Below are positions 35,862 to 52,072 of a stretch of 64,000 nt of DNA, in pieces. The first letter of the stretch is position 1. Every line of letters starts with the position of its first letter. Both the position numbers and the translations under genes were made by a program. Source of the DNA: Streptomyces sp. SCL15-4. GTDB lineage: Bacteria; Actinomycetota; Actinomycetes; Streptomycetales; Streptomycetaceae. The DNA is taken from positions 5,456,001 through 5,520,000 of the forward strand of contig NZ_JAOBTQ010000001.1 of assembly GCF_033366695.1 (NCBI RefSeq). Direction: 5' to 3'. The notes beneath the pieces are model-generated. The model was not told the origin of the DNA. It saw only the letters and a list, made by a program, of their open reading frames with translations, and did not search any database.

Positions 35862-36000
35862 GGCACGGACCTGCGCGCGGAGGGGGCCGGGTCCGCGACG
35901 GCGGTGCCAACGCGTGCCCGGCCGGCCGGCGCGTTCGCCGTCGTCGCCGACAGCGGCCGGGGTTCGTGCGGCCCGTCCGGCGGTGGCCGACGTCCGCCGA

Positions 36001-36165
36001 TGGCCGGTTCCCGGTGATCTGCGCCGAGTCGTCCCCGGGTCCCGCGAGGTCGCACGAGACGGGCCAGCGCCGACCGACAGTGACCGGTGCGCCACTGCAG
36101 TCAGTGGAGAAGGCCCAGGTCACAGGCCCCGGATGATACGGGTTAACACCCAAGGCTGGCGTTCA
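36001..36165 (+). promoter_or_regulatory. Left flank of the element, probably the original ettA upstream region
   Basis: This non-coding stretch ends at the 15-bp core repeat and is similar over its whole length to 50188-50351 on the other side of the element. On excision it would join directly to the ettA coding region. TTAACA at 36143 and CAAGAT at 36168 are a possible but widely spaced promoter. Confidence 0.5.
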
Positions 36166-36180
36166 GGCAAGATGGGGTGT
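36166..36180 (+). repeat. attL core candidate (15-bp direct repeat)
   Basis: GGCAAGATGGGGTGT occurs here and again at 50352-50366 in the same orientation. This copy lies 66 nt beyond the integrase stop codon, the usual place for an att core. Confidence 0.78.
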
Positions 36181-36206
36181 TACTTGCCAGGGGAGGGCAC
36201 GAAAAG

Positions 36207-36243
36207 GGCCCCTCACCAGCGGTTTCTTCGCCAATGAGGGGCC
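36207..36243. terminator. Terminator after int
   Basis: GGCCCCTCA at 36207-36215 pairs with TGAGGGGCC at 36235-36243, just past the integrase stop codon. On the minus strand it is followed by CTTTTC. Confidence 0.85.
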
Positions 36244-36246
36244 GTG

Positions 36247-37527
36247 TCAGGCGACTCGGGCCGTCTCTGGGCCGTCGTCCGCCTCCCGGCCGTCGTGAGC
36301 GTGACCGGCCGCCCGGTACATCGCGGAGATGGCCTTCCGGGTCCGGGTCTCACTCGACGGCATGAGGTGCGTGTAGACGCGGAGGGTGAACCCTGGGTCG
36401 CTGTGGCCGAGGTAGAGACTCAGGGCCTTGATGCTCTCCCCGGCGTCCAGGAGGACCGAGGCGTAGAAGTGGCGGAGCGCGTGCATCCCGTGCTCACGGG
36501 CAGATGCGTAACGCTCACCCTTCTCCGGCACCGGGATGATGCCGGCGGAGGCCAGCGCAGGCTTCCATGCCTGGTCGTTGAACCCCTGGCTCCAGATGGC
36601 GGCGCCGATGCCGCTCGTGAAGACGAGACGGTGTGTGACCTTGGGGCCGGTCGGCGTCAGCCAGGGCAAGTTCACCTCGACGGGCGGGAAGTGCTCCATG
36701 TGCTGGCGGAGGGCGGCCGACACCTCGGGGTCGAGGGGGACGTCACGGAGCTTGCCGCGCTTGGGCGGGGCGAAGACGAGCGTGCCGCGAACCTTCTTCA
36801 CCTGTTGGCGGACGTACAGCCAGCCCAGATCCCCGATGTTGTCGACGGCCAGGCCGAAGATCTCCCCCTGCCGCAGGCCGCATCCGGCGCCCAGGTCGAC
36901 CATGGCCCGGTACCGGTCAGGCAATCCGGCCCGCACACCGAAGACCTCTTCCACGGACCACGGACGGACGCGTGTAGGCGCGGGACGAGGTGCCTTGACT
37001 GATCGGACCCTGCACGGGTTCGAGGCCAGCAGACGGTCATCCACGGCCGCGTTCAGCACGGAGGACACCGCGTCGAAGATGAGGCGCCGGTACTGGGGCG
37101 AGGCCACGGCCTCTTCCAACCGGCGGTTCCAGTCGCGGATGTGTTCGGGCTGGAAAGAGCCGATGGGGCGAGAGCCGAGGTACGGCAGGGCGTGAAGACG
37201 TAACCTCCCTTCGACGGCTGCCCGGCTGGTCAGGTCAGTGGTGAGCGCGGCGATCCACCGTTCCGTGTACTCCCGGAAGGTGATCCGCGCGGCTCGCGGG
37301 TCGATGTACTGCCCGCGCGCCATGTCCGCTTCGATGTTGGTCAACCACTGGTCGGCAAGCCGCTTCTGTTTGTCTGGAAAGCTCTTGGACTTCTCCGTGC
37401 CGTCTGGGGCGACGTAGCGAGCGCGATAGCGCATGCCCGTGCCGTAGCGCTCGGTCTTGACCTTGTGCGGCTTGCCGTCCGGGCCCTTCTCGACCCTGAA
37501 CCAACGATCTTGGATATGTCCGGCCAT
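36247..37527 (-). CDS. int: Tyrosine-type site-specific integrase
   Basis: A 426-aa recombinase that integrates and excises the element. An N-terminal arm-binding region and a SAM-like core-binding domain (about 84-175) precede the catalytic domain. Catalytic residues can be placed: R219 (GCGLRQGEI), K256 (PPKRGKL), H349 and R352 (HGMHALRHFYA), H375 (LGHSDP) and the nucleophile Y385 (RVYTHL). All are intact. ATG at 37527 shares one base with the xis stop (TGATG). The int end faces the left att core, as in other AICEs. Confidence 0.96.
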   Translation of the reverse strand: MAGHIQDRWFRVEKGPDGKPHKVKTERYGTGMRYRARYVAPDGTEKSKSFPDKQKRLADQWLTNIEADMARGQYIDPRAARITFREYTERWIAALTTDLTSRAAVEGRLRLHALPYLGSRPIGSFQPEHIRDWNRRLEEAVASPQYRRLIFDAVSSVLNAAVDDRLLASNPCRVRSVKAPRPAPTRVRPWSVEEVFGVRAGLPDRYRAMVDLGAGCGLRQGEIFGLAVDNIGDLGWLYVRQQVKKVRGTLVFAPPKRGKLRDVPLDPEVSAALRQHMEHFPPVEVNLPWLTPTGPKVTHRLVFTSGIGAAIWSQGFNDQAWKPALASAGIIPVPEKGERYASAREHGMHALRHFYASVLLDAGESIKALSLYLGHSDPGFTLRVYTHLMPSSETRTRKAISAMYRAAGHAHDGREADDGPETARVA

Positions 37528-37760
37528 CAGGCAGCAGCTCCCTTGATCTGGGACTCGACCCATGCGCGTACGTCGTCCGGGTCGAAGCGGAGATGCCGGC
37601 CGACCCGGAATCCTCGCGGACCGGTGCGCTTGCGGCGCCACTGGTAGACCGTCTCGACGCTGGGCAGCTCGAACATCTCCACCAGGTCGTCAGGAGTGAG
37701 GAACCGCGAGGGCAGGGCGCGCGGTTCGGCTTCCGCCTTCGCGTTGCGTCGGTCAGCCAC
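37527..37760 (-). CDS. xis: Excisionase (Xis), AlpA/MerR-like winged helix
   Basis: A 77-aa DNA-binding protein with the excisionase pattern: RFLTPDDLVEMFELPSVETVYQWRRKRTGP then FRVGRHLRFDPDDVRAWVE. It bends att DNA so that the integrase excises the element. GTG at 37760 overlaps the rep end by 8 nt, and its stop overlaps the int ATG, so rep-xis-int form one unit as in pSAM2. Confidence 0.92.
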   Translation of the reverse strand: MADRRNAKAEAEPRALPSRFLTPDDLVEMFELPSVETVYQWRRKRTGPRGFRVGRHLRFDPDDVRAWVESQIKGAAA

Positions 37761-39096
37761 GAGTGGGTTCTCCTTCCGTTCCGGGGGCGGGGTCGAGGGA
37801 TGCGGCGAGCCAGGCTTCGGTGTCGGACAGGCCGGTGCCGGCGAAGACCCAGTGGGCGAGGACGTACGTCGTGTCTGCCGGGCGTTCGTCGGTTGTTGCT
37901 TGGGCGCGGCGCCATGCGGCGCGGGCGTCGCGGAGGGCGCCGAGGGTGGTGGAGTAGCGGCGGGACTTGGTGGAGAAGTGGCCGCGGAATCCGAGCATGT
38001 GGGCCCAGGCGCGCAGGCGGAGGTGTTCGAGGTCCTTGCGGGCGCCGAGGGTCCAGGCGGTGCGGATGAGGCGGCGGGCGTGGTCGCTGATGTCGAGCTG
38101 GGCGAGTTCGGCGGCGAACTTGAGTGGCCGGTCGAGGGCGCCCGTCGCGGTTTCGGCGCCCTTGGTGGCGTACTTGGCGATGTACGCCGCCACGGCGCGC
38201 TCGGTCAGCTCCTGGCCGTCGTTGAAGTCGGCGGAGCGGATGGTGCGTATGTCGAGCTGACGGCCGAAGGTGAAGGTGTGGGCGCGGCCGTCGATGACCG
38301 GGCCGTCGACGCGTGCCCTGGTGGCTGCCGCGTGGATGGCGTCGGTGAGGAGTTCGGCGGTGGCCCAGGGCGGGGGCGGGGTGTCGGCGCCGCCGGGGCC
38401 GTCGAGGCGGATGACCGCGTGGAAGTGGACCGCTCCACGCTTCTGGTACTCGGCGACCTTGGCGAAGGACACGCGGGCGTGGTCGCGGAACCGGCGCTGT
38501 GACAGGCCCGCGCTCTTGGCGACCTCCCGGCGGAGGTGGATGGAGAAGCGGCGCCAGAGCTGTCCGGCGTGGGCGTTCCAGAGGACGGCGGCTTCGTAGT
38601 CGTAGGTGTCCGGGTCGAGTGGGGTGCCGAGTGTGGTGTCGACCTGGTCGTGGTGGGTGCCGCAGCGGCAGGGGCGGCCGTCGGTGCGGCGGTTGTGGAC
38701 CGGGCCGAAGCCGGGGGCGGTGAAGGTAGCGAAGACGCGGGGGTGCGCGGCGACGTGTTCGGGGGTGCCTTTGCCGCCGCGCAGCCCGGCGGTGATCAGG
38801 TGGAAGGTGTCTCGGCGGTAGACCTCGGCGCAGGCCGGGCAGCGGGTGGTGCGGCGGTTGTTGCAGCGAACGAGGAGTTGGCCGGCCGGGAGGGTGGTCG
38901 AGTCGAGGTGGTGGAGGACGCGGCCGATCTCTCCGGTGGTGGTGTCGATGTCGTACTCGGTGCGGTGGCCGTCGAGGCGGATCGGGTGGGTGCAGCCGCC
39001 GAGCCCGGAGAGCTGCCGCAGGATGCCCGGCAGGTTGCCGTTTTCGGCCAGCCTCGCGAGTTCCGGGAGCGGGGGCGGGGTGGTGCGGGTGAAGAT
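37753..39096 (-). CDS. Replication initiator (RepSA-like, HUH type) with probable ATC start codon
   Basis: A 447-aa rolling-circle initiator. The frame is open from 39192 to 37753, but no ATG, GTG or TTG occurs upstream of 38472, which lies mid-protein. Family-like sequence begins FTRTTPPPLPELARLAENGN, immediately after AAGGAG-ACCGCC-ATC, so ATC at 39096 with a 6-nt spacer is the probable start. Visible features are a Cys pair (TRCPACAEVYRR), WNAHAGQLWRRF, the HUH motif in RGAVHFHAVIRLDG and the tyrosine motif AAYIAKYATKG. If only the GTG at 38472 were used, the N-terminal 208 residues would be lost. Loss of a normal start by mutation is the alternative. Confidence 0.8.
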   Translation of the reverse strand: MFTRTTPPPLPELARLAENGNLPGILRQLSGLGGCTHPIRLDGHRTEYDIDTTTGEIGRVLHHLDSTTLPAGQLLVRCNNRRTTRCPACAEVYRRDTFHLITAGLRGGKGTPEHVAAHPRVFATFTAPGFGPVHNRRTDGRPCRCGTHHDQVDTTLGTPLDPDTYDYEAAVLWNAHAGQLWRRFSIHLRREVAKSAGLSQRRFRDHARVSFAKVAEYQKRGAVHFHAVIRLDGPGGADTPPPPWATAELLTDAIHAAATRARVDGPVIDGRAHTFTFGRQLDIRTIRSADFNDGQELTERAVAAYIAKYATKGAETATGALDRPLKFAAELAQLDISDHARRLIRTAWTLGARKDLEHLRLRAWAHMLGFRGHFSTKSRRYSTTLGALRDARAAWRRAQATTDERPADTTYVLAHWVFAGTGLSDTEAWLAASLDPAPGTEGEPTRG

Positions 39097-39192
39097 GGCG
39101 GTCTCCTTCTGACTGGATCGGTCAGGGGTGATGGGCCCGGGGCGGCCGGATGCTTGGCCGTGTCGCGGCCGTCCCGGGTGCGGTCGGACGGG

Positions 39193-39438
39193 TCAGCGCC
39201 GGTGCTGCTCGCGGAGCAGGGAGCGCAGGACGACGGTGGCGACGGCCACGGAGATGGCCGTGACGGCGACGGCGGCCAGGAGCGCGGTGAGGACGACTCC
39301 GCCGACGAGCAGGGCCACGACCGTCTTCTGGTCGACGGGAAGGGACGCGAGGCCGCGTCGGGCGGGCGCCGGGTCGGTGGGCGCGTCGATGTGGGTGGAC
39401 GGCGGGGTCGGGTTCTCCGGGTACTTGGGCAGGAACAC
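39193..39438 (-). CDS. Small membrane protein (Spd-like)
   Basis: An 81-aa protein with a hydrophilic Pro-rich N terminus and one long hydrophobic segment (about 39-72, VVALLVGGVVLTALLAAVAV). It matches the small membrane proteins of the spd region of AICEs, which help plasmid spread within the mycelium. GTG at 39438 lies just downstream of an operator-like site, so it may begin the spd-rep-xis-int transcript. Confidence 0.72.
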   Translation of the reverse strand: MFLPKYPENPTPPSTHIDAPTDPAPARRGLASLPVDQKTVVALLVGGVVLTALLAAVAVTAISVAVATVVLRSLLREQHRR

Positions 39439-39452
39439 GGCTTGGCCTTACT

Positions 39453-39466
39453 TATCTACTCGTCTA
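39453..39466 (-). promoter_or_regulatory. KorSA-type operator candidate 1
   Basis: TATCTACTCGTCTA is identical to 42282-42295 in the traB promoter region. It lies 15 nt before the 81-aa membrane protein gene, overlapping the stop codon of the gene upstream. Confidence 0.6.
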
Positions 39467-39658
39467 GTCATGTGAGCCGTTTACGACGCCGACGCCGGAC
39501 CGGGTGCCGGACTCGATGGCGGGGGCGAGGAAGGTGTGCGAAAGCCAGAAACCGAACAGCGCGATGAGGACGACGATCCAGGGGCGGACGCCGAGGAACT
39601 TGATCGCTCCCCAGGCGAAGAACCCGAGGATGAGGACGAGCGGCAGGCTGACGGTCAC
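39464..39658 (-). CDS. Small two-span membrane protein (Spd-like)
   Basis: A 64-aa protein beginning VTVSLPLVLILGFFAWG, with two hydrophobic segments separated by LGVRPW. GTG at 39658 is preferred to the frame start at 39787, whose leader is Pro/Ala-rich shadow of the next gene. It probably helps intramycelial spread of the element. Confidence 0.68.
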   Translation of the reverse strand: MTVSLPLVLILGFFAWGAIKFLGVRPWIVVLIALFGFWLSHTFLAPAIESGTRSGVGVVNGSHD

Positions 39659-39674
39659 GGTGGTCCGGGGCCTT

Positions 39675-39866
39675 TCAGCGGACGGGGCAGCGGTGGGTGC
39701 GGGCGGCCAGTTCGGCGGCGGCGCGGCTGTCGTAGTCGGCGGAGAAGCCGCAGCGCGGGGCGGTGCAGGCGGCGGTGTGCTTCTCACGGCCCCGGTTGTC
39801 GTAGGAGGTGCCGACCTGGACGGGGCCGATGCGGGTGACGTTGCGGAAGCTGCGGTTGGCGGACAC
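39675..39866 (-). CDS. Mobile element transfer protein (small conserved AICE protein)
   Basis: A 63-aa protein with the pattern I know from Streptomyces elements: SANRSFRNVTRIGPVQVGT, then HTAACTAPRCGFSADYDSRAAAELAARTH. The two Cys and two His suggest a zinc site. GTG at 39866 follows GAGGAGA. Function in transfer is inferred from constant presence beside traB and rep. Confidence 0.85.
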   Translation of the reverse strand: MSANRSFRNVTRIGPVQVGTSYDNRGREKHTAACTAPRCGFSADYDSRAAAELAARTHRCPVR

Positions 39867-39877
39867 GTGGTCTCCTC

Positions 39878-40504
39878 TCAGAGGTGGGCGGCGATGGCTT
39901 CGGCCATCGGAGCGGGGACGCCGAGGCGGGCGCGGAGGGTCGGGGTGTCGATCGGGGCGCCGGTACGGGCGTGGTGCTCGGCGGCGACCTTGCGGGCGTG
40001 GTCGATCAGGGCGGACGGGACGGTCACGGGTGTCGGTCGCGGCGGTGGCTCGATGGTGGGTGAGACAGGCGCTTCCGGTTCGGGGGCGGTTTCCGGCTTG
40101 TCCACCTGGTCCTCGGTGACTTCCGCCTCGGGGTCCGGCTTGGGTGCGGAGTGGGCGAGGAGGGTCCCGCCGAGGAAGGCGAGGGCGGGCCAGCCCGCGA
40201 CGAGGATGCGCAGCCAGGCCGGGACGTTGCCGAGGTCGAGGAGGCCGGCGGTGGCGACGTTGGCGCCGAGGGAGGCGGCGAGGGCGACGACGAACCAGCA
40301 CCAGGCCGCGGCTTTGCCGTTGCCGGAGCGCAGTCGACGCCAGGCGGCGACGAGCAGCAGGTCGACGGAGACGGGATAGGCCCACGCTTTCCATCCGTCC
40401 TGCCCGGCCGCCACGGCGACATCGTGCAGGTGTGCGAAGGACAGCGCGGCGGCGATGAGCGCCTGGACGAGCACCGCGTCGACACGGGCCAGGTGGGCGC
40501 GCAT
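39878..40504 (-). CDS. DUF2637 membrane protein (SpdB-like)
   Basis: A 208-aa protein with four hydrophobic segments in the first 120 residues (VLVQALIAAALSFAHLHDVA, YPVSVDLLLVAAW, WCWFVVALAASLGANVA, LVAGWPALAFLGGTLL), the DUF2637 pattern of AICE spread proteins. An acidic Pro/Glu linker and a helical C-terminal DNA-binding-like segment follow. GGAAGGAG precedes ATG 40504. Confidence 0.85.
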   Translation of the reverse strand: MRAHLARVDAVLVQALIAAALSFAHLHDVAVAAGQDGWKAWAYPVSVDLLLVAAWRRLRSGNGKAAAWCWFVVALAASLGANVATAGLLDLGNVPAWLRILVAGWPALAFLGGTLLAHSAPKPDPEAEVTEDQVDKPETAPEPEAPVSPTIEPPPRPTPVTVPSALIDHARKVAAEHHARTGAPIDTPTLRARLGVPAPMAEAIAAHL

Positions 40505-40538
40505 GATGCGGCTCCTTCCGGAGTCGGGCGGGGGTAGG

Positions 40539-41915
40539 TCAGTCGGTTACCGGGTGGGGCAGGACGACCGGGGCCGCGTGCTCGACCGGACGCTCGGGCA
40601 AGTCGGGGCGGAAGGGGGCCAGCGCGGGCAGGTCGGGCACCAGTCCGGCGGACGTGCGGCAGGTCTCGGCCGCGTCGGTGAGGGAGAGGTACGGCGTGCG
40701 GATGCGGGACCAGCCGCCGGAGGTGTCACCCGCCACGGCCAGGCCGGGCCGTTCAGGGGCGATGGAGCAGGCGGCCATGACCGCCTCGGGGGCGATGTCG
40801 CCGAGGGCCATCTTGGCGGAGGCTTCGTCGTTGACGCGGTGGCAGACGCGGCCGGTGAGCTGGGCGCGGAGCATGGTGGCGCCCTTGCCGAGTTCGGCGC
40901 CAAAGCGCTGCCCGCAGACCTCCAGGTACATGCCGGCCGCGCGGCCGAGCTGGGCGAGCCGGATGAGCTGGGTGACCATCTCGTCCCGGCGTTCCTCGTC
41001 CTTCTTCGTGGCGACCAGGAAGAGTTCGGCCACCTCGTCCACGAACAGCACGACGGGCACGGGTCGCTCGTGCTCGGGCAGTCCCCAGATGTCGGAGGTG
41101 ATCTCCTCGTCCGGGGTGCCGGGGGCGATGCCCTGCCGGGTCTTGATCAGGTCGTATCGGTCCTCCATTTCCTTGACCAGGACGGGCAGCAGTTCGGCCG
41201 CCTGCTCCGGGTCGGTGGCCAGCGCGGAGAGCCGGGGTGCGAAGGGGGCCAGTTCGACGCCCCGCTTGCAATCGATGCCGACCAGGGCGACCGGCTGAGG
41301 GGCGAGGCCGGCGAGGAGGTGGCGCAGGTACATGGACTTGCCGGACAGGGTGGCGCCGAGGGTGAGCTGGTGGGGGATGGTGCGGTAGTCGCGTACGAAC
41401 GGTGTTGCGTCCTCGCGCAGGGCAACCGGCACCTGGAGGAAGCCGCCCGGGACCTTGCGCGGCATGCGGACCCGCCGTAAGACGTCGTAGCCGACGAGCC
41501 GCAGCTCGATGACACCCGGCTTGACCGGGGTGACGTAGACGGCGTGGACGCCCCAGGCGTGCCGCAGCCGTTCGGCCGAGGCGGCGAAGTCGGCGGGTTC
41601 CTGGCCAGGGGCCAGGCGGAGGCGTATCCGCAGCCCGGTCGTGGTGGGCCGGAGCAGGCCCCGGCGAGGCGGTACGGGCCGCACCTCACGCCGGGTCATC
41701 GCCTTGGCGGCGAGCACCCGGAGCCGGGACGGCGCCACGGTGAGGCCGCACGCCTCCATCACCGAGCCGTACGTGCTGAGCAGCCGGACCGTGGACACCG
41801 GGAGGCCGACCGTGGACCAGTACGCCGCCGGGTGCTTGGCCCGGGCGTAGGCGGCCCCGCCGCCGAGCGCAGCGACAGGACCACCCACTTCCAGAAGCGT
41901 CGTCAGGTCGGACAT
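40539..41915 (-). CDS. Conjugal DNA translocase TraB (FtsK/SpoIIIE family)
   Basis: A 458-aa ATPase that alone moves double-stranded element DNA between hyphae. The Walker A motif is GATLSGKS (187-194) and Walker B is VPVVLFVDEVAELF near 275-288. RRDEMVTQLIRLAQLGRAAGMYLEVCGQR is the conserved post-Walker B segment. Membrane association would be by the N terminus (EVGGPVAALGGGAAYA). ATG at 41915 overlaps the preceding stop (TGATG). Confidence 0.95.
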   Translation of the reverse strand: MSDLTTLLEVGGPVAALGGGAAYARAKHPAAYWSTVGLPVSTVRLLSTYGSVMEACGLTVAPSRLRVLAAKAMTRREVRPVPPRRGLLRPTTTGLRIRLRLAPGQEPADFAASAERLRHAWGVHAVYVTPVKPGVIELRLVGYDVLRRVRMPRKVPGGFLQVPVALREDATPFVRDYRTIPHQLTLGATLSGKSMYLRHLLAGLAPQPVALVGIDCKRGVELAPFAPRLSALATDPEQAAELLPVLVKEMEDRYDLIKTRQGIAPGTPDEEITSDIWGLPEHERPVPVVLFVDEVAELFLVATKKDEERRDEMVTQLIRLAQLGRAAGMYLEVCGQRFGAELGKGATMLRAQLTGRVCHRVNDEASAKMALGDIAPEAVMAACSIAPERPGLAVAGDTSGGWSRIRTPYLSLTDAAETCRTSAGLVPDLPALAPFRPDLPERPVEHAAPVVLPHPVTD

Positions 41916-42271
41916 CAGGCAGCGGCCCCGGTGGCGGCCGGGAAGACGGCGGGGGTGACGGCGGCGGCGCGGTAGGCGATGCCGTGGCGCTGCTGACCGT
42001 TGAAGACGGACTCCCACGGCCGGGCGACCAGGCCCGGCAGCGAGACCGGCGCCCCAAGGGTCAGCCCCTCGGAGATGCCACCCTCCGGAACGGTGACCTT
42101 GATCAGCGAGGACTCGCCGTCCTCGATGTAGACGACGCCGATGGTCATCAGCGCCTCACCGCTGTTGGCGTCCTTGGCGATCTCGCCGGTCTGCCGGTCG
42201 CGGACCTTCGGTTCGGGGGCCTCGGTGAGAAGGATCGTGGCGCCAGAGGTCTCCACGCGGATGGTGCGCAA
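41915..42271 (-). CDS. Conserved AICE protein encoded upstream of traB
   Basis: A 118-aa soluble protein, mainly beta, with MRTIRVETSGATILLTEAPEP, YIEDGESSLIKVTVPEGG and GLVARPWESV. It is translationally coupled to traB. The start is TTG at 42271, supported by AGGAG 8 nt before it. It is a common gene in this position but I do not know its role; a small nucleic-acid-binding fold is possible. Confidence 0.75.
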   Translation of the reverse strand: MRTIRVETSGATILLTEAPEPKVRDRQTGEIAKDANSGEALMTIGVVYIEDGESSLIKVTVPEGGISEGLTLGAPVSLPGLVARPWESVFNGQQRHGIAYRAAAVTPAVFPAATGAAA

Positions 42272-42281
42272 GACACACTCC

Positions 42282-42299
42282 TATCTACTCGTCTATACA
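42282..42299 (-). promoter_or_regulatory. KorSA-type operator candidate 2
   Basis: TATCTACTCGTCTATACA lies 10 nt upstream of the TTG start of the traB transcription unit. It shares 14 nt exactly with the site at 39453. Confidence 0.62.
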
Positions 42300-42352
42300 A
42301 GATGGGTCCTGCGAACCCCTTGATCGGGATCGCGGAATCACCTTGCCACACA

Positions 42353-42377
42353 ACTCGCCCACTCGTCTATACGAGTA
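42353..42377 (-). promoter_or_regulatory. KorSA-type operator candidate 3
   Basis: ACTCGCCCACTCGTCTA at 42353-42369 is repeated exactly, inverted, at 43249-43265. Within it ACTCGT-CTAT-ACGAGT (42361-42376) is a palindrome with 6-bp arms. It lies between gntR and the traB unit. Confidence 0.65.
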
Positions 42378-42438
42378 AGCGTGTTGGGGTGTACGAGTTC
42401 GGGAGAACGTCCCCGCGCACCACCGCAAATCGTGACGA

Positions 42439-43227
42439 TCAGGTCGCCGGAAGCTGGTACGAGAGGACGTAGGCGTCCGCCGCCATCACCGTGTCGCAGA
42501 CCTCCACGGCCCGACCCTCGGTGTCGAAGGCGGTTCGGATGAGGTGGATGACCGGGACGCCAGCCGCGAGTCGCAGCGTCTTCACCTCGGCGGGCGAGGG
42601 CATCCGGGCACGGATCTCCTCGTCGAAGTGGTCGAGGCGGTGGCCCAGCTCTTCCAGGCGGGCGTAGATGCCGCCGGGGCCGGGGTTGGGTTCGGCGATG
42701 GGGGTCCCGCGGGCGATGTCGAGCGGGAGGTAGGAGGTGGCGAACTCGACCGGCCGCCCGTCGAGCAGGTACCGGCGCCGACGGGCCAGCACGCGCCGCA
42801 CGGAGCCGAGCCGGGTGGAGATGTCCTGGCTGGCCTTCTCCTCCTTGACCTCCAGGCTGTCGACCTGGGGGTGGCCGCCGGCCGCGTCGGCTTCCACGAT
42901 GAACGCGGACTTGCCCTGCTCCCTGTGCCGCCGGGCGAAGCGGTCCGAGGCGAGCCGCCGCACGGGCGGTCGCGGTCGCACGAAGACGCCCCTGCCGTGC
43001 TCGGCGTGCACCAGGCCCTCGCCCTGGAGGATGGAGAAGGCGTTGCGGACCGTCATCCGGGACACCCCGAAGTGGTCCACGAGGTCGGCTTCGGAGGGCA
43101 GCTTTTCGCCCTCGCGGAATCGCCCACGGTCGATGGCCTCGCGCAGCTGGTCGGCGATCTGCCTAAAGACCGCACGATCGCTCGTGGGGTCGAGATCACC
43201 GAGGAGGCCCGAAGAAAGAGGGCTCAC
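42439..43227 (-). CDS. GntR-family repressor with UTRA domain (KorSA-like)
   Basis: A 262-aa regulator. The winged helix occupies about residues 15-80 (AVFRQIADQLREAIDRGRF, LPSEADLVDHFGVSRMTVRNA, GLVHAEHGRGVFV). The UTRA ligand-binding domain covers about 100-255. In pSAM2 KorSA represses the activator and transfer genes and itself. Repeated operator-like motifs beside its own start and the traB unit support that role here. AAGGAG precedes GTG 43227; it is divergent from the Nudix gene. Confidence 0.9.
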   Translation of the reverse strand: MSPLSSGLLGDLDPTSDRAVFRQIADQLREAIDRGRFREGEKLPSEADLVDHFGVSRMTVRNAFSILQGEGLVHAEHGRGVFVRPRPPVRRLASDRFARRHREQGKSAFIVEADAAGGHPQVDSLEVKEEKASQDISTRLGSVRRVLARRRRYLLDGRPVEFATSYLPLDIARGTPIAEPNPGPGGIYARLEELGHRLDHFDEEIRARMPSPAEVKTLRLAAGVPVIHLIRTAFDTEGRAVEVCDTVMAADAYVLSYQLPAT

Positions 43228-43244
43228 GTGAATACTCCTTTAGG

Positions 43245-43266
43245 TATCTAGACGAGTGGGCGAGTG
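43245..43266 (+). promoter_or_regulatory. KorSA-type operator candidate 4, divergent gntR/nudix promoter
   Basis: The exact inverse of the 17-nt motif at 42353-42369 lies at 43249-43265, in the 85-nt space between the divergent gntR and Nudix genes. Autoregulation of gntR is the likely meaning. Confidence 0.65.
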
Positions 43267-43312
43267 CTGTTGCTACGGTGGAGAGCCTAGCCATCCGAGA
43301 GGGCCGAGGAAC

Positions 43313-43744
43313 GTGAGCACTGAACGCCCGCACTCCGTGAGCGTCGCCGGGGTCGTCGTGGACGACCAGGGCCGGGCCCTCCTGATCCAGCGCCGGGACA
43401 ACGGTCACTGGGAGCCGCCGGGCGGTGTCCTCGAACGCGAGGAGACCATCCCGGAAGCCCTCCAGCGCGAAGTCCTCGAAGAGACCGGCATCAAGATCGC
43501 GCTTCCCGCGACCCTGACCGGCGTCTACAAGAACATGAAGGGCCTGATCGTCTCGCTGGTCTTCCGCTGTGAAGCCGCCAACGGTGTGCCCACCACCGGT
43601 GACGAGACCCGCGCACTGCGCTGGGCCACCCGCGAAGAGGTCACCGAGCTTGCCGACGAGGCGTACGCGATACGCGTGCTCGACGCACTCGACGCGGCGA
43701 CCCCGCCGGCCGTTCGCGCCCACGACGGCGTGAAACTCGTCTAG
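43313..43744 (+). CDS. Nudix hydrolase (Pif-like)
   Basis: A 143-aa Nudix protein. The Nudix box is complete: GGVLEREETIPEALQREVLEETG with Gly, the REVLEE core and the following hydrophobic residue. Of known AICE proteins, Pif of pSAM2 has a Nudix motif and gives immunity against redundant transfer; this gene holds the comparable place beside korSA. Nucleotide-pool cleaning is the alternative. GTG at 43313 with GAGGA just upstream is chosen over the frame start at 43256, which lies inside the operator. Confidence 0.85.
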   Translation: MSTERPHSVSVAGVVVDDQGRALLIQRRDNGHWEPPGGVLEREETIPEALQREVLEETGIKIALPATLTGVYKNMKGLIVSLVFRCEAANGVPTTGDETRALRWATREEVTELADEAYAIRVLDALDAATPPAVRAHDGVKLV

Positions 43745-43789
43745 CCCGAACCCGCTGCACATGGCGGCCTACCAGCACGAAGGAACTTG

Positions 43790-43811
43790 TATGCACGAGT
43801 ATACGAGTACG
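43790..43811 (+). promoter_or_regulatory. KorSA-type operator candidate 5 over a start codon
   Basis: CACGAGTATACGAGTAC repeats ACGAGT twice and shares TATACGAGTA (43800-43809) with 42368-42377. It covers the start codon and first codons of the ATP-binding regulator gene, so repressor binding could block it directly. Some similarity may be coding constraint. Confidence 0.45.
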
Positions 43812-44219
43812 GCCCGGGTCTGGGAGCTGAGTTGCCCAGGATTCCCGGAAGAAGTGAGCCGGGCCCGCCGCTGGACCCGGGACATCCTGCGCGACTCCCC
43901 TCTGGCCGACGACGCCGAGCTGATCGTGAGCGAGCTGAGCACCAACGCGATCCGCCACACGGCCAGCGGCTGGGAGCCCGGCAGCTTCCACCTGGCCGTC
44001 GCGGTCTCGGCCCAGGTGGTCGCGGTCTCGGTCACGGACGACGGCGGCGCGGCCACGGCCCCCAAGGTCGAGCACCAGGACCACGAGGCCGAGCACGGCC
44101 GGGGCCTGGGCATGGTGAGCGCCCTCGCCCACCGGGTCGTCGTCCACGACACCGACCAGGGCCACACGGTCACCGCGGAGCTATACGCCGACGCACGGCT
44201 GGGAGGCCAGCGATGCTGA
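43791..44219 (+). CDS. HATPase_c-type ATP-binding regulator (anti-sigma-factor-like)
   Basis: A 142-aa protein of the RsbW/SpoIIAB-like ATPase fold common in Streptomyces. The N-box ELIVSELSTNAIRHT, the G1 box VSVTDDGG and the G2 box GRGLGMVSALA are intact. It could bind a sigma factor or other partner; the target is unknown. AAGGA lies 7 nt before ATG 43791. Its stop overlaps the next gene. Confidence 0.85.
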   Translation: MHEYTSTARVWELSCPGFPEEVSRARRWTRDILRDSPLADDAELIVSELSTNAIRHTASGWEPGSFHLAVAVSAQVVAVSVTDDGGAATAPKVEHQDHEAEHGRGLGMVSALAHRVVVHDTDQGHTVTAELYADARLGGQRC

Positions 44220-44596
44220 TGAAGCTGCCCCGGTGGGGTTTCTGGTGCGAGTGCTGGACGGAGAGCCTGACCGAGCAGGGCCCGCCGGCACTGGTGGCAT
44301 CGTTCGACGCCTACTCCGCTCCACAGGCAGACCGTTGGGTAGCGGTCGCCCTCGAAACGATCTCCCCGGCACTGGACGCGGACGCCTCCAGCGCAGCGTG
44401 GGAGTGGATGTATGACGGCCGGATCGCCACCCGACGAGCCCTGCTGCGGGCCGAGCCCTGCACGGTGTCCCTGACCCACGCCGGCACCCGCATCACCTGG
44501 ACGATCCGGCCAGCGTTCTTCCTGCCCCTCGCGCACCGCCAGGGCACCGAACTCCCGGCATGCACGCACGGCTTCACGCCCCGCCCAGAAGAGTGA
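44213..44596 (+). CDS. Hypothetical AICE protein
   Basis: A 127-aa protein beginning MLMKLPRWGFWCECWTES, rich in Trp and Cys, with a hydrophilic middle and the C-terminal LTHAGTRITWTIRPAFFLPLAH. GGGAGG lies 6 nt before ATG 44213; the gene overlaps the ATPase gene by 7 nt and is cotranslated. I do not recognise it. Similar small genes follow such ATPases in other Streptomyces elements. Confidence 0.68.
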   Translation: MLMKLPRWGFWCECWTESLTEQGPPALVASFDAYSAPQADRWVAVALETISPALDADASSAAWEWMYDGRIATRRALLRAEPCTVSLTHAGTRITWTIRPAFFLPLAHRQGTELPACTHGFTPRPEE

Positions 44597-44780
44597 GTTA
44601 CAACTTTCTCTACTGGTTCAAGGCGGCTCGCTCCGCTCACCGCGCGCGGCCCGGCCCCCGGCCGGGCCTGCGCTCCTGTCTCCGCCCCGCTCCAGCCCGG
44701 CCGGCGCCCGTGCCGCGCTCTTGGCGATCAGCCACCTGACGTCAGAGAAAAGGTACGTCGTGGCTGGGGCGGTCGGCTCC
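44597..44780. other. Intergenic region after the 127-aa gene
   Basis: No gene can be supported. The sequence moves from G+C-rich to lower G+C at about 44.75 kb, marking the boundary between AICE backbone and cargo. Confidence 0.45.
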
Positions 44781-44925
44781 ACGGCTTTAGGCAGCCACTT
44801 TGGCGCGAGCCTCGAAGATCATGGCCCCAACGTCGTGCTTTAGCGGGCAGGTCCACAGACTGCCCGACGCGCCGGAAGCTTACGGGGCCATGATCACTCG
44901 CGCCAAAGCAGCTCCAGCCCAAAGC
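44781..44925. repeat. Large imperfect inverted repeat with nested hairpin
   Basis: TTTGGCGCGAG (44799-44809) and GATCATGGCCCC (44817-44828) are mirrored by GGGGCCATGATC (44884-44895) and CTCGCGCCAAA (44897-44908). The left arm has seven extra bases where the right arm has one. The outer parts also match loosely through CGGCTTT. At the centre GGGCAG (44845-44850) pairs with CTGCCC (44860-44865). The axis is near 44856 for all parts, so the 145-nt region can form one long cruciform. It may be a single-strand replication origin, a MITE-like insertion or a bidirectional terminator. Confidence 0.6.
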
Positions 44926-44988
44926 CGCTCCGCCGACCTTCGCTGAGCGCTTGGCGTTGTCTCCTTACTACAGCTGGCTATGTCGTTT

Positions 44989-47900
44989 CTAGTCCCGATA
45001 CCCAGACAGCTCATGCCACAGCTCCTTGCACTGCTTCCCAGTGAGCCGAGACTCAGGGGGCAAGGTGGAGGACCACTCCTGCTCAGTGCGACTCGCGATC
45101 CATTGCCGAAGATCCCTGAAGGTCGTTCCGATCTGCCCAGATCTTTGCCATTCGATTCCCATTCGATGAGCCGCCGCTCGGGGAACACCACCCATGCGCA
45201 TCGCTACTGCCCCAGTAGACGGCACACCATAAAAAACCATGGCTGCAGCGTATGCATTACCGCCTTCCGGACTGCCCGACGCTGAAGTCAATTTCTGCAG
45301 TGCACCCATTCCCCAAGGCACCTGACCTACCAGCCTGCTATGCACGTAAAGTCCAGCCGCCCTAAGGCGTTCCATTGCACCGCCGGGCTCGTGACGGAAC
45401 CATTTATCTGCGATGGTCCGCAAGGATTCCCCATTAACCCAGTCTCGGGTCACGCCCGCCACAGTGCGAGCGTTGAACGGTGCGGATGCGTCTTCAGTCA
45501 CACCAAGTGACAGTTCAGGAATGTCTGCCAGAACCTCAATCACATGCGTCAGCCCCTCCGCGTCGGGGCCGAACAGGTTCTCGGCGTCCCAAAAACCTTC
45601 GCGCCGAAACTCGGGATATTCAGCAGATCGGGCAAACGCATAGTTCACGGAAGGTAGACTAAATCCCGTACCGTCGGCCAGCGCAAGGTATCCGCGATCA
45701 TATTGCTCAAGTTCCGCCATGAACGTTCTGGCAATAGAAATAAGTTGATCCGCAAGCTGCCTGTCCGACTCTTGAGTCTGATGATAGACGAGACTCGACC
45801 TAAGAAGTTCCTCGATGTCACGACCAGACTCCTCTGCGCCGGCGACACGGGCCGCATGGGCCAAGTATTGAAGGAATACAGCCAGTGCGGAATTTTGCCT
45901 TACAAAGGAAAGATCGAAACGCTCCACAACATTTGCGAGGTCGTGCGTGGCTTGCATTAGGTGGCTGCAGATGTCGGCAGCTTGCCTACGGAGGAAGCGT
46001 TGCACTTCCTCTCGGTCATCTTTAGAGAGCGTTGGGAAAACCACCAGACCCAGCGAGTCCTGCAAAGCTCGACCGGCCCTACCCGCAATGTTCCAGAACT
46101 CGGCGTAGCTAAGGGGCTTCGTGCCATTTCCGATCCCCTGATACTTGGACATTGTCTCAAGAATGACGCTACTGATAGGAAAATTAAGTCCCTGCGCAAG
46201 CGTAGTTGTCCCGCAGACGATGTCCACATCGCCCTTTTCGATCAATCCTTCGAGCAAGAACCTGAGATCATGAGAAACACCCGCATGATGGTACGTGACT
46301 CCCCGTTCTACGTGTCGCACCAACGGATGTGTTTCCCCATACTCAAGAGCGATGTAGTTCCGAACTGCCTCACCGAACTGCGACATTCTCCTCGGGTGCC
46401 GTAGTGCAGCCACCTCAGCCGCCCGATCTTCGGCTGGTTTACGCCCCCGCACCAGCACTAGTACCGAGCCTTTCTCCGCGAGTTCAACCGCCACATGCGC
46501 ACTTGTTTGTGATTTGGTGCGCTTAATGGAACCAGAGACTCGCAGCAGTTCAACTGTGTGCCCGGCAGCGACGTCGACGTTGTCAGCACTTTCCAACGTG
46601 GTCAGACTTAGGACGTAAGGTCCCTTGCGGATCTTCTTCCACTCCGTACAGGTCACTACCCGCTCGCTGGGACGCCAGTTAACCGAAATTGTGGCGTCGG
46701 CTCCATCCCCCAGCCAGCGTCCCAATTCAGATGCATTGGGAACAAAGGGGGTGAGCATGAGAAAGCGAGTTTCGGGACGTTCCCGCTTTAGAGTACCGAG
46801 AAGAAGCTCCATACGAACTCCCCGGTCCCCGTCCGCCAGATTATGCGCCTCATCGACAACGGCCAATGACAGGTTATGTACCGCGTCGTGCCTTGATTTA
46901 ATTAGAAGATCCAACTTCTCTGGTGTGCACACCAACACGTCTATGTGCTGCTGAAGGAGTTGGTCCTCAGTGGGATCTAGCTCGAAGACAGGAGCAGCTG
47001 CTTCAACCACGAGGTTGAGCGGCCTGAAGTCGCGCCTCAGCCGCTGAGTTATCTGATTGACTAAGGCGCGGGTCGGCACGATGTAAGCCACTGTAGAGCT
47101 TCGGTTCAAGGCATGCGCTTGAACGATGCTGAACTCGGCGAGCAATGTCTTGCCGGCCGATGTGGGCATCTCCACTACGATGGCACGTTTCGCCGGATCG
47201 AGCAGATGTTGATCCAGGGCAGTTCGTTGGCTCGGCCAAAGCTCAAGCGTCGGGTGTTTCTGATGGGATGCGAGTGCCGCAACGAACGCCCTGAAATCCT
47301 GACCAAGCAGCCGCGTATTCTTCCAGATACTTGACGAAACAACGGCCCGGCATGCTGCAACGACGGCATGGCAAAGCTCTTCGAATCGCAGATCCGAACG
47401 AATCTTGAATAGATCTCGAAGGTTCCGCTCGTGCCGGTCAATTTGAATTTCGGCGTCCACCGGCTGACCGTTTACTGTATAGCTCGACGCGATCTCGACT
47501 ACCTTGGCAAGGTTGAATCGAGCGATAAGCCTGACTCCAGCCTCAGTCTTATCGTTATAGCGAGTAAGAAAGCTCTCTTGCCCTTCCTGATGATAGTTTC
47601 GCAGATTGGAAATAGCTTGCCTACACGCGTCGAGATCTGCCCACCCGCTACCTCTACGAGCCAGCAGAAGGAAGGCGCGCAGTACATCTTTCTCTAGCTG
47701 TTCATCCAAGGGATCCGCTGATGTGATCAGCTCCTCTCTCGTGGGGATCCCAGACTCCCGCAGAGAGAGCATTACCTCTGGACGGCGAAAAGACAAAATC
47801 CCGTCAGATGCCAGTAGAACCAAATGTCGAAGTTTCTCCGCAGGCTGTTCCGGCGCCTCCTTGCGTCGACATAGAAAGGCATGCTCGTAGAGAAGCGCTT

Positions 47901-48102
47901 GGTCGCTCTGATCTTCCGTATCTGCGGCAATTCCTTCTAGCGACGTAGCCAGGACATCCAACTCAAAATCAAGTTCGGCATCCGCAAGCAGATCCAAGTT
48001 GCTGTGCCCGATGCGAGACAAGAGGTAGGACGCTTTAGATATCCGGGATGCAGTTTCTGCGCCTGTCTCCCGGAGCAGTTGGAGGGCCATCGATTCCGTC
48101 AT
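44989..48102 (-). CDS. hamB: SF2 DEAH-box helicase, Hachiman HamB-like
   Basis: A 1037-aa helicase. An N-terminal region of about 290 residues precedes the motor. Motor motifs are Walker A EMPTSAGKT (311-319), PTRALV near 343, CTPEKLD, Walker B VVDEAH (415-420), the T-T-LAQGLN segment and motif VI NIAGRAGRALQD. This arrangement is Ski2-like. Length, and coupling to a DUF1837-like nuclease gene by an ATGA overlap, fit HamB of Hachiman (or the related AbpB). It would sense or unwind DNA damaged or altered by phage and release HamA. Codon use is more A/T-rich than the backbone, showing separate origin. Confidence 0.82.
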   Translation of the reverse strand: MTESMALQLLRETGAETASRISKASYLLSRIGHSNLDLLADAELDFELDVLATSLEGIAADTEDQSDQALLYEHAFLCRRKEAPEQPAEKLRHLVLLASDGILSFRRPEVMLSLRESGIPTREELITSADPLDEQLEKDVLRAFLLLARRGSGWADLDACRQAISNLRNYHQEGQESFLTRYNDKTEAGVRLIARFNLAKVVEIASSYTVNGQPVDAEIQIDRHERNLRDLFKIRSDLRFEELCHAVVAACRAVVSSSIWKNTRLLGQDFRAFVAALASHQKHPTLELWPSQRTALDQHLLDPAKRAIVVEMPTSAGKTLLAEFSIVQAHALNRSSTVAYIVPTRALVNQITQRLRRDFRPLNLVVEAAAPVFELDPTEDQLLQQHIDVLVCTPEKLDLLIKSRHDAVHNLSLAVVDEAHNLADGDRGVRMELLLGTLKRERPETRFLMLTPFVPNASELGRWLGDGADATISVNWRPSERVVTCTEWKKIRKGPYVLSLTTLESADNVDVAAGHTVELLRVSGSIKRTKSQTSAHVAVELAEKGSVLVLVRGRKPAEDRAAEVAALRHPRRMSQFGEAVRNYIALEYGETHPLVRHVERGVTYHHAGVSHDLRFLLEGLIEKGDVDIVCGTTTLAQGLNFPISSVILETMSKYQGIGNGTKPLSYAEFWNIAGRAGRALQDSLGLVVFPTLSKDDREEVQRFLRRQAADICSHLMQATHDLANVVERFDLSFVRQNSALAVFLQYLAHAARVAGAEESGRDIEELLRSSLVYHQTQESDRQLADQLISIARTFMAELEQYDRGYLALADGTGFSLPSVNYAFARSAEYPEFRREGFWDAENLFGPDAEGLTHVIEVLADIPELSLGVTEDASAPFNARTVAGVTRDWVNGESLRTIADKWFRHEPGGAMERLRAAGLYVHSRLVGQVPWGMGALQKLTSASGSPEGGNAYAAAMVFYGVPSTGAVAMRMGGVPRAAAHRMGIEWQRSGQIGTTFRDLRQWIASRTEQEWSSTLPPESRLTGKQCKELWHELSGYRD

Positions 48103-48935
48103 GCCACTTCCCTCGCCCTCGCATAGACACGTTCAGCGAAGTCTTCGAGGGTCCCCGGGATACGTATGATAGAAAACCGAACTTGCGCAGGCCCGTACTC
48201 TTCGGGAGCTTCCTTGAAGCATCCGAAATCGTCTACCCCATGCTTATCCATTGGTCTTACCAGTACAGGCGCGGCGATAGGCGGTTCGGCATCCTTCCGA
48301 GAAAGTAGGATAAGAGCCCTGGCTACCTCGCCGCGCAGGTTAGCCGTCGTATGTTTGTGCGCCCAGGCGAGTTCAGCCAGCAAGCCTTTCTGATCTTTGA
48401 GGCGCTTTTTAGTCTGCGCATGCATGCTATCATCCCCGCCCCCTACAACCGCAGGGGGGCTAGCCGAGGAAGAGGAGGCCTTCACTTCACAAATGACGGC
48501 TCGAACCTTCGGCGTCATCAAGAGAGCGAAAATATCCAAACCTCGCGTGGGGGCCTGAGATATCTCCTTCTCTCGTATACGGGAAGCCGGTATTAGAAAC
48601 TTGTGAATCTGTCGCAGAACGTCAAAGGCAAGGATCTCCGCGACCTCGTTACGGGGCGTCTGGAGATGCACTCGTTCCGCATCCAGATCCATTTGTGGAA
48701 TAACGGCGGACGCTACCTCGCTCATCAGGCTTGCTAGCTCACCGGATGAAGCAACACTGTCAAGGTCAGCGCTCGCGCGGCGTAGCGAATCCATAAGAGT
48801 GTCTGGGTCGACGTATAACTCAGCGACTATTCGTGCGACTTCGTCTATCACGTCATCGTCTGCTGTTACGTCGTAGCACTCAAATGTGTGCTCGCCCACG
48901 ACTGTCGAGCTCACGAGTTCGTAGCGACTAGGCAC
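48099..48935 (-). CDS. hamA: DUF1837-like nuclease, Hachiman HamA-like
   Basis: A 278-aa soluble protein. The C-terminal part has a PD-(D/E)xK-type pattern: GLDIFAL (D135), then RAVICEVKAS with E151 and K153, preceded by a helix with RNEVAEILAFDVLR. The EVK element agrees with the HamA active site as I know it. The family assignment is by motif, size and its helicase partner, not by search. GTG at 48935 is chosen: it has a G-rich element about 10 nt upstream and the sequence before it is Cys/Arg-rich shadow. The helicase ATG overlaps its stop (ATGA). Confidence 0.75.
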   Translation of the reverse strand: MPSRYELVSSTVVGEHTFECYDVTADDDVIDEVARIVAELYVDPDTLMDSLRRASADLDSVASSGELASLMSEVASAVIPQMDLDAERVHLQTPRNEVAEILAFDVLRQIHKFLIPASRIREKEISQAPTRGLDIFALLMTPKVRAVICEVKASSSSASPPAVVGGGDDSMHAQTKKRLKDQKGLLAELAWAHKHTTANLRGEVARALILLSRKDAEPPIAAPVLVRPMDKHGVDDFGCFKEAPEEYGPAQVRFSIIRIPGTLEDFAERVYARAREVA

Positions 48936-49269
48936 GACCGGCCCGCCCCCCTCTGCACTGTTGTCGCCGCAGCCGAGGCCCCTCCCCCTGCGCCGATAGG
49001 TGGACAGTACCGATAAGTGCCGGATCCTGCCTAGACCGCGGACGCACACCCGCGGTGAGCACATGCAGTCGAAAGGCCAGCAGGTACCTGAGGCACCACT
49101 GAGTGCCGCGCTAGAACTACACGGTAGGCAACAGCACCTTCGCATCTGATTCCAGCACGCCGAGCCTCACGTCGAGCGCTACGGCTGTGCAGCTCAAGCC
49201 GAGCAACCCGTGTCCAGCGCCGGCAACGAGCTGTAGCCGTTGCTCATCGACACGTGCTATGCCCTCCAT
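48936..49269. promoter_or_regulatory. Divergent promoter region of the defence genes
   Basis: 334 nt between hamA (minus) and the membrane protein gene (plus). No gene is supportable. Both promoters should lie here; I could not define operators. Confidence 0.45.
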
Positions 49270-49815
49270 ATGGATCAAGGTGTAGCCGCGTTCGTCGCCG
49301 GCATAGCTGGCATGGTCGGCGCTCTCGGCGGAGCAGTAGCCGGCGGAATAGCAGCTGTTCGAGGAGCTCGTATCGGTGCGGAGAGGACTGCTGAAGCCAC
49401 GCGTCAGGCCGTCCAGGACCAAGCCGCTGCAGAGCACGGACATTGGCTGCGTGAACAGCGGCGTGATGCGTATGCATCGTTCATCACAGCCACACAAGCG
49501 GTCACGGATGCCGCCAAAGCTGTGACAACCATGCAACATGACCAGCTCATCGCTCTCAACCAGGCAGTGCAGGACCTCATCAAGATCAGTAGCCTCATCA
49601 CTTTGATGGGCCCCGAAGAGGTCATCGCCGCAGCTGGGCGCGTCATAGGCGCTGCGGAGAACTTCAGGGGGTGCCTATGGGACGAGTCACGCATCACCGA
49701 CCATAGGTCGCAGGAGTCGATCGACGCCTCTGACAGGACGGATGAGGCTGCCGATGGCTACGCCGAGATGGTGCAGCACTTCATTGCCATAGCCCAAGGA
49801 GTGCTGGGCAGATGA
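49270..49815 (+). CDS. Membrane-anchored helical protein of unknown function
   Basis: A 181-aa protein with an N-terminal hydrophobic segment (AAFVAGIAGMVGALGGAVAGGIAAV), a basic patch, then a helical cytoplasmic region with REQRRDAYASFITATQAVTDAAKAV. It has the same layout as the 29375-29917 product. ATG at 49270 lacks a clear ribosome site; TTG at 49240 is also possible. It may be cargo joined to the defence module or an unrelated passenger. Confidence 0.62.
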   Translation: MDQGVAAFVAGIAGMVGALGGAVAGGIAAVRGARIGAERTAEATRQAVQDQAAAEHGHWLREQRRDAYASFITATQAVTDAAKAVTTMQHDQLIALNQAVQDLIKISSLITLMGPEEVIAAAGRVIGAAENFRGCLWDESRITDHRSQESIDASDRTDEAADGYAEMVQHFIAIAQGVLGR

Positions 49816-50187
49816 GGTCGTATCTCAGTGGCTCGCACCACCCGCACCACAAGCGCACCAGATCGAGCGGGGAGCCACGGGGAATCACGGTGAAAGCAGG
49901 CGCCTGCGACGAGGCCGCAGCTCGACCGTTTACCCAGGTCAGCGGCCGAACTTGCCACAAGTGATCGCAGCTTCCCAAGCTGAGGGTTCGGGTGCGGTTG
50001 GCTCCGGCTCGTCCCCACGGCCCGGCCGGCGTGGCTGCTCCCGTCGACGGCGCTGCACCGTGGCTGAGGCCGGTGGGGGTGCAGCGAGACATACGCGCGC
50101 CTGGTCGTTCGGCGCGTCCGCCGTCGTGGCTGGCTGTCGGTGGCTTGAGGTTCATACGGCCTGTCGATGGCGCCGCTGTCAACCGAT
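49816..50187. other. Right end of the element, non-coding
   Basis: No gene is supportable. AGCTTCCCAAGCTGAG near 49976 resembles a tRNA-Gly anticodon arm, but the T-arm does not follow, so it is not counted as a tRNA or att site. Confidence 0.4.
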
Positions 50188-50351
50188 GACCGGTTCCTGG
50201 TGATCGACTCTGGGCCGTCCCTGGGCCGTGCGAGGGTGCCCGAAGCTGACCGACGGCGACCGGCAGTGACAGGCGAGACGCGGCGCGCCACAGTGAAACC
50301 CCAGGTCAGGCCCCCCGGACGGAACGGGTTTCCCCGTAGGGGTGGCGGTAC
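50188..50351 (+). promoter_or_regulatory. Element-borne diverged copy of the ettA upstream region
   Basis: By eye about two thirds of positions match 36001-36165, including GTTCCxGGTGATC, a CGACCG/AGTGAC section, CCCAGGTCA and the run into the core repeat. After integration this copy, not the original, lies before ettA. It probably restores expression of the gene. Confidence 0.5.
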
Positions 50352-50366
50352 GGCAAGATGGGGTGT
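50352..50366 (+). repeat. attR core candidate (15-bp direct repeat)
   Basis: GGCAAGATGGGGTGT, exact repeat of 36166-36180, 41 nt before the ettA start codon. Confidence 0.78.

Positions 50367-50407: not shown

Positions 50408-52072
<1,665 letters not shown>

Follow-up and report, generated by a model that had tools for sequence, protein, structure and literature searches.

A divergent Hachiman-like nuclease-helicase pair of the PDC-M23 candidate family carried by an integrating element of Streptomyces sp. SCL15-4

The 64,000 nt stretch of DNA analysed here, termed the window, is from Streptomyces sp. SCL15-4 (contig NZ_JAOBTQ010000001.1, positions 5,456,001 to 5,520,000 of the forward strand). 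It contains two overlapping genes that encode a small nuclease-type protein and a large helicase. The pair is real and intact. It is Hachiman-like but divergent, is a member of a candidate family that is already catalogued, and is located on a well-delimited actinomycete integrative and conjugative element (AICE). The best model for both proteins is PDC-M23, a candidate system of PADLOC-DB 2.0.0 composed of M23A and M23B. The pair is probably a PDC-M23 system in which a HamA-family PD-(D/E)XK-type nuclease and a HamB-related Ski2-like helicase, carried as AICE cargo, act in a manner similar to Hachiman. The homology, the intact catalytic motifs and the gene coupling are established at the sequence level, as is the mobility of the carrier family. 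What is new is the separate branch of the helicase together with the integration site; that such a pair exists is not.

The initial annotation described two coupled genes with an ATGA overlap, encoding 278 and 1037 amino acids (aa), and the coordinates, strand and intact frames are all as it gave them (Table 1). The junction is GGCATGACGG, in which the ATG of the helicase gene overlaps the TGA of the upstream gene by 4 bases. Neither open reading frame (ORF) has internal stops. The GTG start of the nuclease gene at 48935 is consistent with the first Met of five homologues, which aligns to residue 1. The motif residues that had been numbered E151 and K153 are off by one; they are E150 and K152, with D134 as the third residue of the active site. 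Homologues of the 278-aa protein with 87–94% identity exist, and one homologue of the helicase is 90% identical over 100% of the length. A chance pair of ORFs was considered and rejected in view of these close homologues and of the conserved pairing in related loci. The G+C content of both genes is 55.5–55.6%, with 57% at third codon positions. The pair is thus compositionally foreign, as the third-position G+C is 84–96% in five other measured genes (integrase, translocase, GntR, NUDIX and ABC-F); the 191-aa ORF that adjoins the pair has 65%. No promoter was predicted by a scan, and terminator-like sites did not exceed the chance level.

Comparison of alignment profiles relates both proteins to Hachiman. 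The comparators are 13 plasmid-borne HamA/HamB-type pairs, whose first genes are annotated as Hachiman HamA (5), DUF1837 (2) or hypothetical (6). An hhalign comparison of the small-protein family with the comparison HamA set gives a probability of 97.9 and E = 4.7e-13 over 230 columns, with the G-x-D and E-x-K motifs aligned. The score is 95.1, versus 16.4 or less for 20 column-shuffled profiles and 20.4 for the reversed profile. Three comparators (L115, L119 and L121) were in this first set and were removed in a repeat, which produced the same result (E = 3.7e-13); their helicases were kept in the motif, length and tree comparisons. The helicase family matches the HamB set with a probability of 100 and E = 5e-101 over 789 columns. 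Its N-terminal 284 residues show a weak match to the HamB N-terminus (E = 2.4e-4, probability 43.9, 177 columns, score 36.3 versus 15.8 reversed), and its C-terminal part matches HamB until approximately 120 residues before the HamB end. HamB is characterized by an N-terminal helical extension and an OB-like region at the C-terminus. At the level of sequence profiles, this shows that PDC-M23 is homologous to Hachiman over much of both proteins, the nuclease site included. Thus the relationship of the pair to HamA/HamB that was initially proposed is retained, but the pair falls short of the curated Hachiman models.

The three loci removed in the repeat are from two Streptomyces plasmids and one Deinococcus plasmid, and in each a HamB-related helicase gene is preceded by an overlapping gene. 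The upstream proteins have no significant profile match to HamA, with a probability of 0.7 against the other ten comparators and 1.0 against the window family. These genes possibly represent another type of effector that is paired with a HamB-related helicase.

The small protein matches PDC-M23A with E = 4.6e-9, its best PADLOC model, and HamA1 with E = 5.4e-8; PADLOC matches are given here as E-values, without PADLOC's own cut-offs. A PADLOC run had been proposed in the initial annotation as a check on Hachiman, and HamA1 and HamB1 do match the two proteins, but the best match of both is PDC-M23. A close alignment consists of the window protein and 49 homologues; the partial homologue P0052 was left out. 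PDC-M23A matches 50/50 of its members, HamA1 matches 44/50 at E ≤ 0.01 and Pfam HamA 23/50. Newer precomputed annotation has PF08878.17 in 45 of the 50 small-protein homologues. The D134-E150-K152 triad is present in every member of the close alignment and in 67 of the 72 ungapped members of a deep alignment, the other five having D-Q-K. A further signature is found after the active site, S154 together with P160-P161 (S-x(5)-P-P), which is conserved in 50/50 close and 70–71 of 72 ungapped deep members and was not seen in the comparison HamA alignment. A comparison of the small-protein profile with the PDB returned only two sequences at E ≤ 10. These are the solved HamA entries 8vxy_A (E = 0.0076) and 8vx9_A (E = 0.01), and the match spans only residues 97–175 of the small protein.

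Other searches with the small protein added little. A profile search of a protein database, which scores only candidates that share short words, gave 78 matches, none of them listed with less than 37% identity to the window protein. A pattern search of genome contigs with P0001 gave 17 pattern matches and no confirmed relative. A PF08878 search found no match in the window's own genome or in 296 genomes of the phylum; there was also none in 14 control genomes, hence this search is uninformative.

The helicase matches PDC-M23B with E = 1.2e-233 over residues 33–1034 of 1037, and HamB1 with E = 5.1e-69. Walker A, DEAH and GRAGR are conserved. Two sets of M23B helicases were used, an alignment of the window protein with 73 of 120 listed homologues, and 77 helicases retained from 80 family loci. 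Motif III has P-F in 74/74 and 76/77 of these, i.e., in 150/151, and (S/T)-P-F in 149/151, the exceptions being one M-P-F and one S-P-A. The region after residue 720 is approximately 106 residues shorter in M23B, with medians of 318 and 317 versus 424 in the comparators. A tree of 67 helicase cores (15 of the 74, 39 of the 77 and 13 of the 13 in the three sets) fully splits 54 M23B helicases from the 13 comparison HamB-like helicases with support values of 0.948/0.985; the tree is midpoint-rooted and has no outgroup. The helicase had been expected within the HamB clade, but in this tree it falls outside the comparison helicases. Judged by the helicase tree, motif III and the shorter C-terminal part, PDC-M23 is a branch separate from Hachiman.

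Family loci were collected with the helicase alone, and the best 80 of 230 were analyzed. Their record titles name Actinomycetota, Alphaproteobacteria, Bacteroidetes, Chloroflexi, archaea and others. In 74/80 loci the small-protein profile matches an ORF whose end falls in the region of the helicase start (E = 1.4e-101 to 4.4e-5 in a small database). The match is absent in six (L036, L051, L089, L099, L100 and L102); in L089 and L099 the helicase match begins less than 150 bases from a contig end. A 4-base overlap is possible in 46 of the 74 paired loci, the start is within 60 bases in 27 more, and one locus has neither. Among 75 first-gene proteins (that of the window and 74 from related loci), PDC-M23A matches 72, one HamA1 model 31, and Pfam HamA 18 at E ≤ 0.001. 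Within the genus the family matches 3/392 genomes, two of them weakly. The class has a profile match at E ≤ 1e-10 in 1/394 genomes, the window's own. Two Streptomyces loci, L002 and L003, have weak small-protein matches (28–30%), after which comes sequence with about 32% identity to helicase residues 56–383, up to the end of the loci. By their sequences these are probably more distant relatives of the pair.

A tally of 116 neighbour proteins from 67 M23 loci (E ≤ 1e-15) includes up to six matches to a type I methyltransferase model and three each to a BREX helicase, DrmD (DISARM) and HmaA. These are among the first 25 of 278 matching models, and one protein can match several. The neighbours support a putative defence context. 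In a plasmid of Rhizobium etli (L112, pRetMIM1e, positions 1–6838) a pair is directly downstream of a CBASS operon. Both profiles of the window family match this pair, with E = 8e-22 and 2e-209 when only the two sequences are searched, and motif III has TPF; a simple pattern finds a single E-x-K in its small protein.

The assignment of the pair to the cargo of a pSAM2-type AICE was also made in the initial annotation and holds, since an integrase, RepSA and an FtsK-type translocase lie between direct-repeat ends; these ends are newly defined. Two exact copies of the 15-base core are present in the window, at 36166 and 50352, with none on the opposite strand. The region upstream of the ABC-F gene, a gene with a DNA match in 199/199 genomes of the genus, is present twice as well, at least at 35963–36180 and 50151–50366, and both copies end in the 15-mer GGCAAGATGGGGTGT. 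The same 15-mer is found at both ends of sibling elements (see below), and therefore the element is taken as 36166–50366, with the pair inside. The copy of the ABC-F upstream region at the right end is diverged and would seem to restore that of the displaced gene. After insertion the ABC-F gene would thus keep an upstream region, since the element supplies a leader version of its own at the right end. In three of 11 loci from other genomes (L007, L009 and L012), the sequence of window positions 25.3–29.0 kb is 40–660 bases from the ABC-F upstream match. Because these sequences adjoin, the three loci lack both the element and the 29–36 kb stretch, and they look like unoccupied sites by sequence.

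An Rfam scan of the window at the gathering threshold found only a tRNA-Arg (19379–19451). It was rejected as an attachment site, since the exact core occurs in the window only at the two ends of the element. A repeat scan with 18-base seeds and a 25-base minimum misses the 15-base attachment repeat. The RepSA-type frame has no ATG, GTG or TTG before 38472. The FtsK/SpoIIIE-type translocase is presumably TraB/TraSA-like and the GntR/UTRA regulator KorSA-like; the NUDIX protein is taken to be Pif-like by its position, by comparison with pSAM2, and the ABC-F gene is assumed to be EttA-like. The idea of the initial annotation that the element combines conjugal exclusion (Nudix/Pif-like) with phage immunity is hypothetical.

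Table 1. Coordinates in the window of the nuclease-helicase pair, its carrier element and the integration site
Feature	Position	Strand	Remarks
HamA-like (PDC-M23A) nuclease gene	48099..48935	-	278 aa, GTG start; D134, E150, K152
HamB-like (PDC-M23B) Ski2-type helicase gene	44989..48102	-	1037 aa, ATG start; Walker A 313-319, DEAH 417-420, motif III LTPFVPN 450-456, motif VI from 671
ATGA stop/start overlap of the two genes	48099..48102	-	
Left attachment core GGCAAGATGGGGTGT	36166..36180	.	15-base direct repeat
Right attachment core GGCAAGATGGGGTGT	50352..50366	.	41 bases before the TTG taken as ABC-F start
Tyrosine integrase of the AICE	36247..37641	-	
RepSA-type replication initiator frame (pSAM2 family)	37753..39192	-	open over full length
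DUF2637 protein	39878..40504	-	
FtsK/SpoIIIE-type DNA translocase	40539..42017	-	
GntR/UTRA regulator	42439..43227	-	
NUDIX protein	43256..43744	+	
HATPase_c_2 protein	43761..44219	+	
191-aa ORF without Pfam family	49240..49815	+	between the pair and the right element end; may not be a gene
ABC-F-type ATPase gene	50408..52072	+	leader is the integration site

Seven regions with a related integrase (63–89% identical) were obtained as siblings (L134–L140). Six were chosen for integrase and ABC-F matches that are close together, and L140 on integrase identity alone. The exact 15-mer is found just outside the integrase and again 49–88 bases before the ABC-F match in 7/7 siblings, with a third copy in L135. 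This points to a family of Streptomyces integrating elements that would use a 15-base core in the ABC-F leader as attachment site. The cargo sample was selected by eye and comprises 10 ORFs, out of 60 listed for cargo regions. They belong to L134, L135, L136 and L140, and conflict-type genes are present in three of these four siblings. L134 has a KAP NTPase (PADLOC PifA, QatA and PDC-S20 at 9e-12 or weaker), L136 has a Schlafen AlbA_2 protein (pAgo-related models, 1.4e-13 at best), and L140 has a 1151-aa protein with AAA and GT4-conflict domains and no PADLOC match (5926–9381, reverse strand). The other seven scanned ORFs show no clear sign of defence; they are a DUF6414 protein (L135), an HTH protein with a weak restriction-enzyme match (5.9e-5), a GntR regulator and four that are matchless in both libraries. 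With a sample that is small and chosen, the sequences fit an exchangeable conflict-gene slot at the ABC-F-leader site.

By analogy, the pair most likely acts together as an anti-phage system, a distant cousin of Hachiman. In Hachiman, detection of DNA damage by HamB switches on HamA, and HamA then destroys all DNA of the cell (Tuck et al. 2024, PMC12278908). The same logic is the best guess here because the pair has in common with Hachiman the catalytic residues, the order of the partners and, to a weak degree, the N-terminal region of the helicase. On the Hachiman model, the nuclease and helicase would form a complex in which the helicase surveys DNA and holds the nuclease in check. The helicase would be loaded by free single-stranded ends, or by other DNA that arises in the replication of a phage or a rival element, and ATP hydrolysis would release or activate the nuclease. 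The nuclease would then destroy phage and host DNA, so that the infected mycelial compartment dies without releasing phage, and host and element would be protected. In view of the conserved P-F of motif III and of the shorter C-terminal part, ATP use may be coupled to activation in a way that differs in detail from Hachiman. A more far-reaching version is a tentative possibility, and rather doubtful. There, PDC-M23 would be a second, separately evolved branch of nuclease-helicase immunity whose helicase lacks the normal motif III coupling and C-terminal region, and hence would be an ATP-driven sensor or switch for DNA ends and not an unwinding enzyme, spread by ABC-F-leader AICEs as one of several exchangeable immunity cargoes.

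Several results weigh against a Hachiman-like defence system. The initial annotation looked to HMM profiles to place the small protein in DUF1837/HamA. The Pfam 16 HamA model (DUF1837, PF08878) gives it 13.6 bits with a cut-off of 25 (E = 0.062), and an NCBIfam scan gave no match, so that the curated HamA cut-offs are not reached; yet the profile comparison described above aligns the two families. The HMMER alignment with solved HamA places E-x-K out of register by two residues. The five deep members with D-Q-K (L039, L050, L054, L063 and L069) have Q at position 150 and lack the catalytic E, possibly a variant or weakened site. All 13 comparison HamB-like helicases have S-A in motif III, unlike M23B, and because of this difference the ATP-activation coupling of Hachiman may not carry over. 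The neighbour tally has no control set. A literature search found no paper naming PDC-M23, hence no phage assay is known for it.

These results also bear on the alternative of a plain canonical Hachiman (HamAB) locus. In accord with it are the homology, which covers much of the two proteins, the same gene order and overlap and the PF08878.17 annotation of most relatives, but the PDC-M23 models fit better, the Pfam and NCBIfam cut-offs are missed, and the tree split (54 M23B versus 13 comparators, without outgroup), the P-F in place of S-A and the roughly 106 fewer residues after position 720 make it unlikely. The initial annotation also allowed for AbpA/AbpB. The accessible part of PMC10732053 describes AbpA as a protein of 538 aa that carries a HamA domain and an N-terminal Cap4 nuclease, with AbpB as the helicase, and the accessible part of PMC12278908 reports inactive residues at the active site of the AbpA HamA domain. 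Both systems have a HamA-related protein with a related helicase. However, the window protein has 278 aa, no Cap4-type Pfam domain and an intact triad; AbpAB was rejected, and such an assignment is extremely unlikely.

The pair may instead serve the element itself in competition with other plasmids or AICEs, directed at incoming or replicating mobile DNA, with phage defence secondary. The conjugative-type carrier with its NUDIX gene, and the KAP NTPase, Schlafen AlbA_2 and AAA plus GT4-conflict cargo of siblings at the same site, would suit such a role. It is nonetheless quite unlikely given the spread of the family over many phyla that are not known to have AICEs, and its position beside genes that match phage-defence models. 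A module for DNA repair or element maintenance without immune function draws on the helicase core, which matches the Hel308-type NCBIfam model PRK02362 (191.5 bits) nearly as well as HamB1 (231 bits). Against this are the N-terminal extension common to HamB, the nuclease partner in 74/80 loci, the rarity in the genus and the neighbours that match defence models (no control), and this explanation is very unlikely. A PDC-M23 nuclease-helicase defence pair with Hachiman-like action is therefore preferred.

The PDC-M23 candidate family is now linked to a system of known mechanism, and this linkage provides testable predictions, i.e., complex formation, nuclease restraint and activation by DNA ends. 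It is likewise a natural point of reference for the way in which motif III links ATP use to the release of the effector. In addition, a small Streptomyces integrating element with a non-tRNA site carries such a system among exchangeable conflict-type cargoes. The accessible part of PMC9513070 already reports for AICEs in general the presence of phage-protection genes (restriction-modification, AIPR), shared insertion sites and cargo exchange, as well as protein-gene sites such as rlmN. A narrow literature search found no paper on an attachment site in an ABC-F leader.

The element resembles pSAM2-type AICEs in having tyrosine integrase, RepSA, DUF2637, FtsK translocase, GntR and NUDIX genes. 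It differs in that it is inserted in the ABC-F leader and not in a tRNA gene; the vast majority of tyrosine-integrase AICEs are in tRNA genes according to the accessible part of PMC3218068. In common with AbpAB the pair has a HamA-related protein and a related helicase, but it has neither the extra Cap4 nuclease nor the inactive HamA site of AbpA. The pair shares with Hachiman two overlapping genes in the same order, a D-E-x-K nuclease and a Ski2-like helicase with a related N-terminal extension. It differs from Hachiman in its separate helicase branch, in P-F and not S-A in motif III, in a shorter C-terminal part, and in the S-x(5)-P-P that follows the active site of the window family and is absent from the Hachiman HamA comparators.

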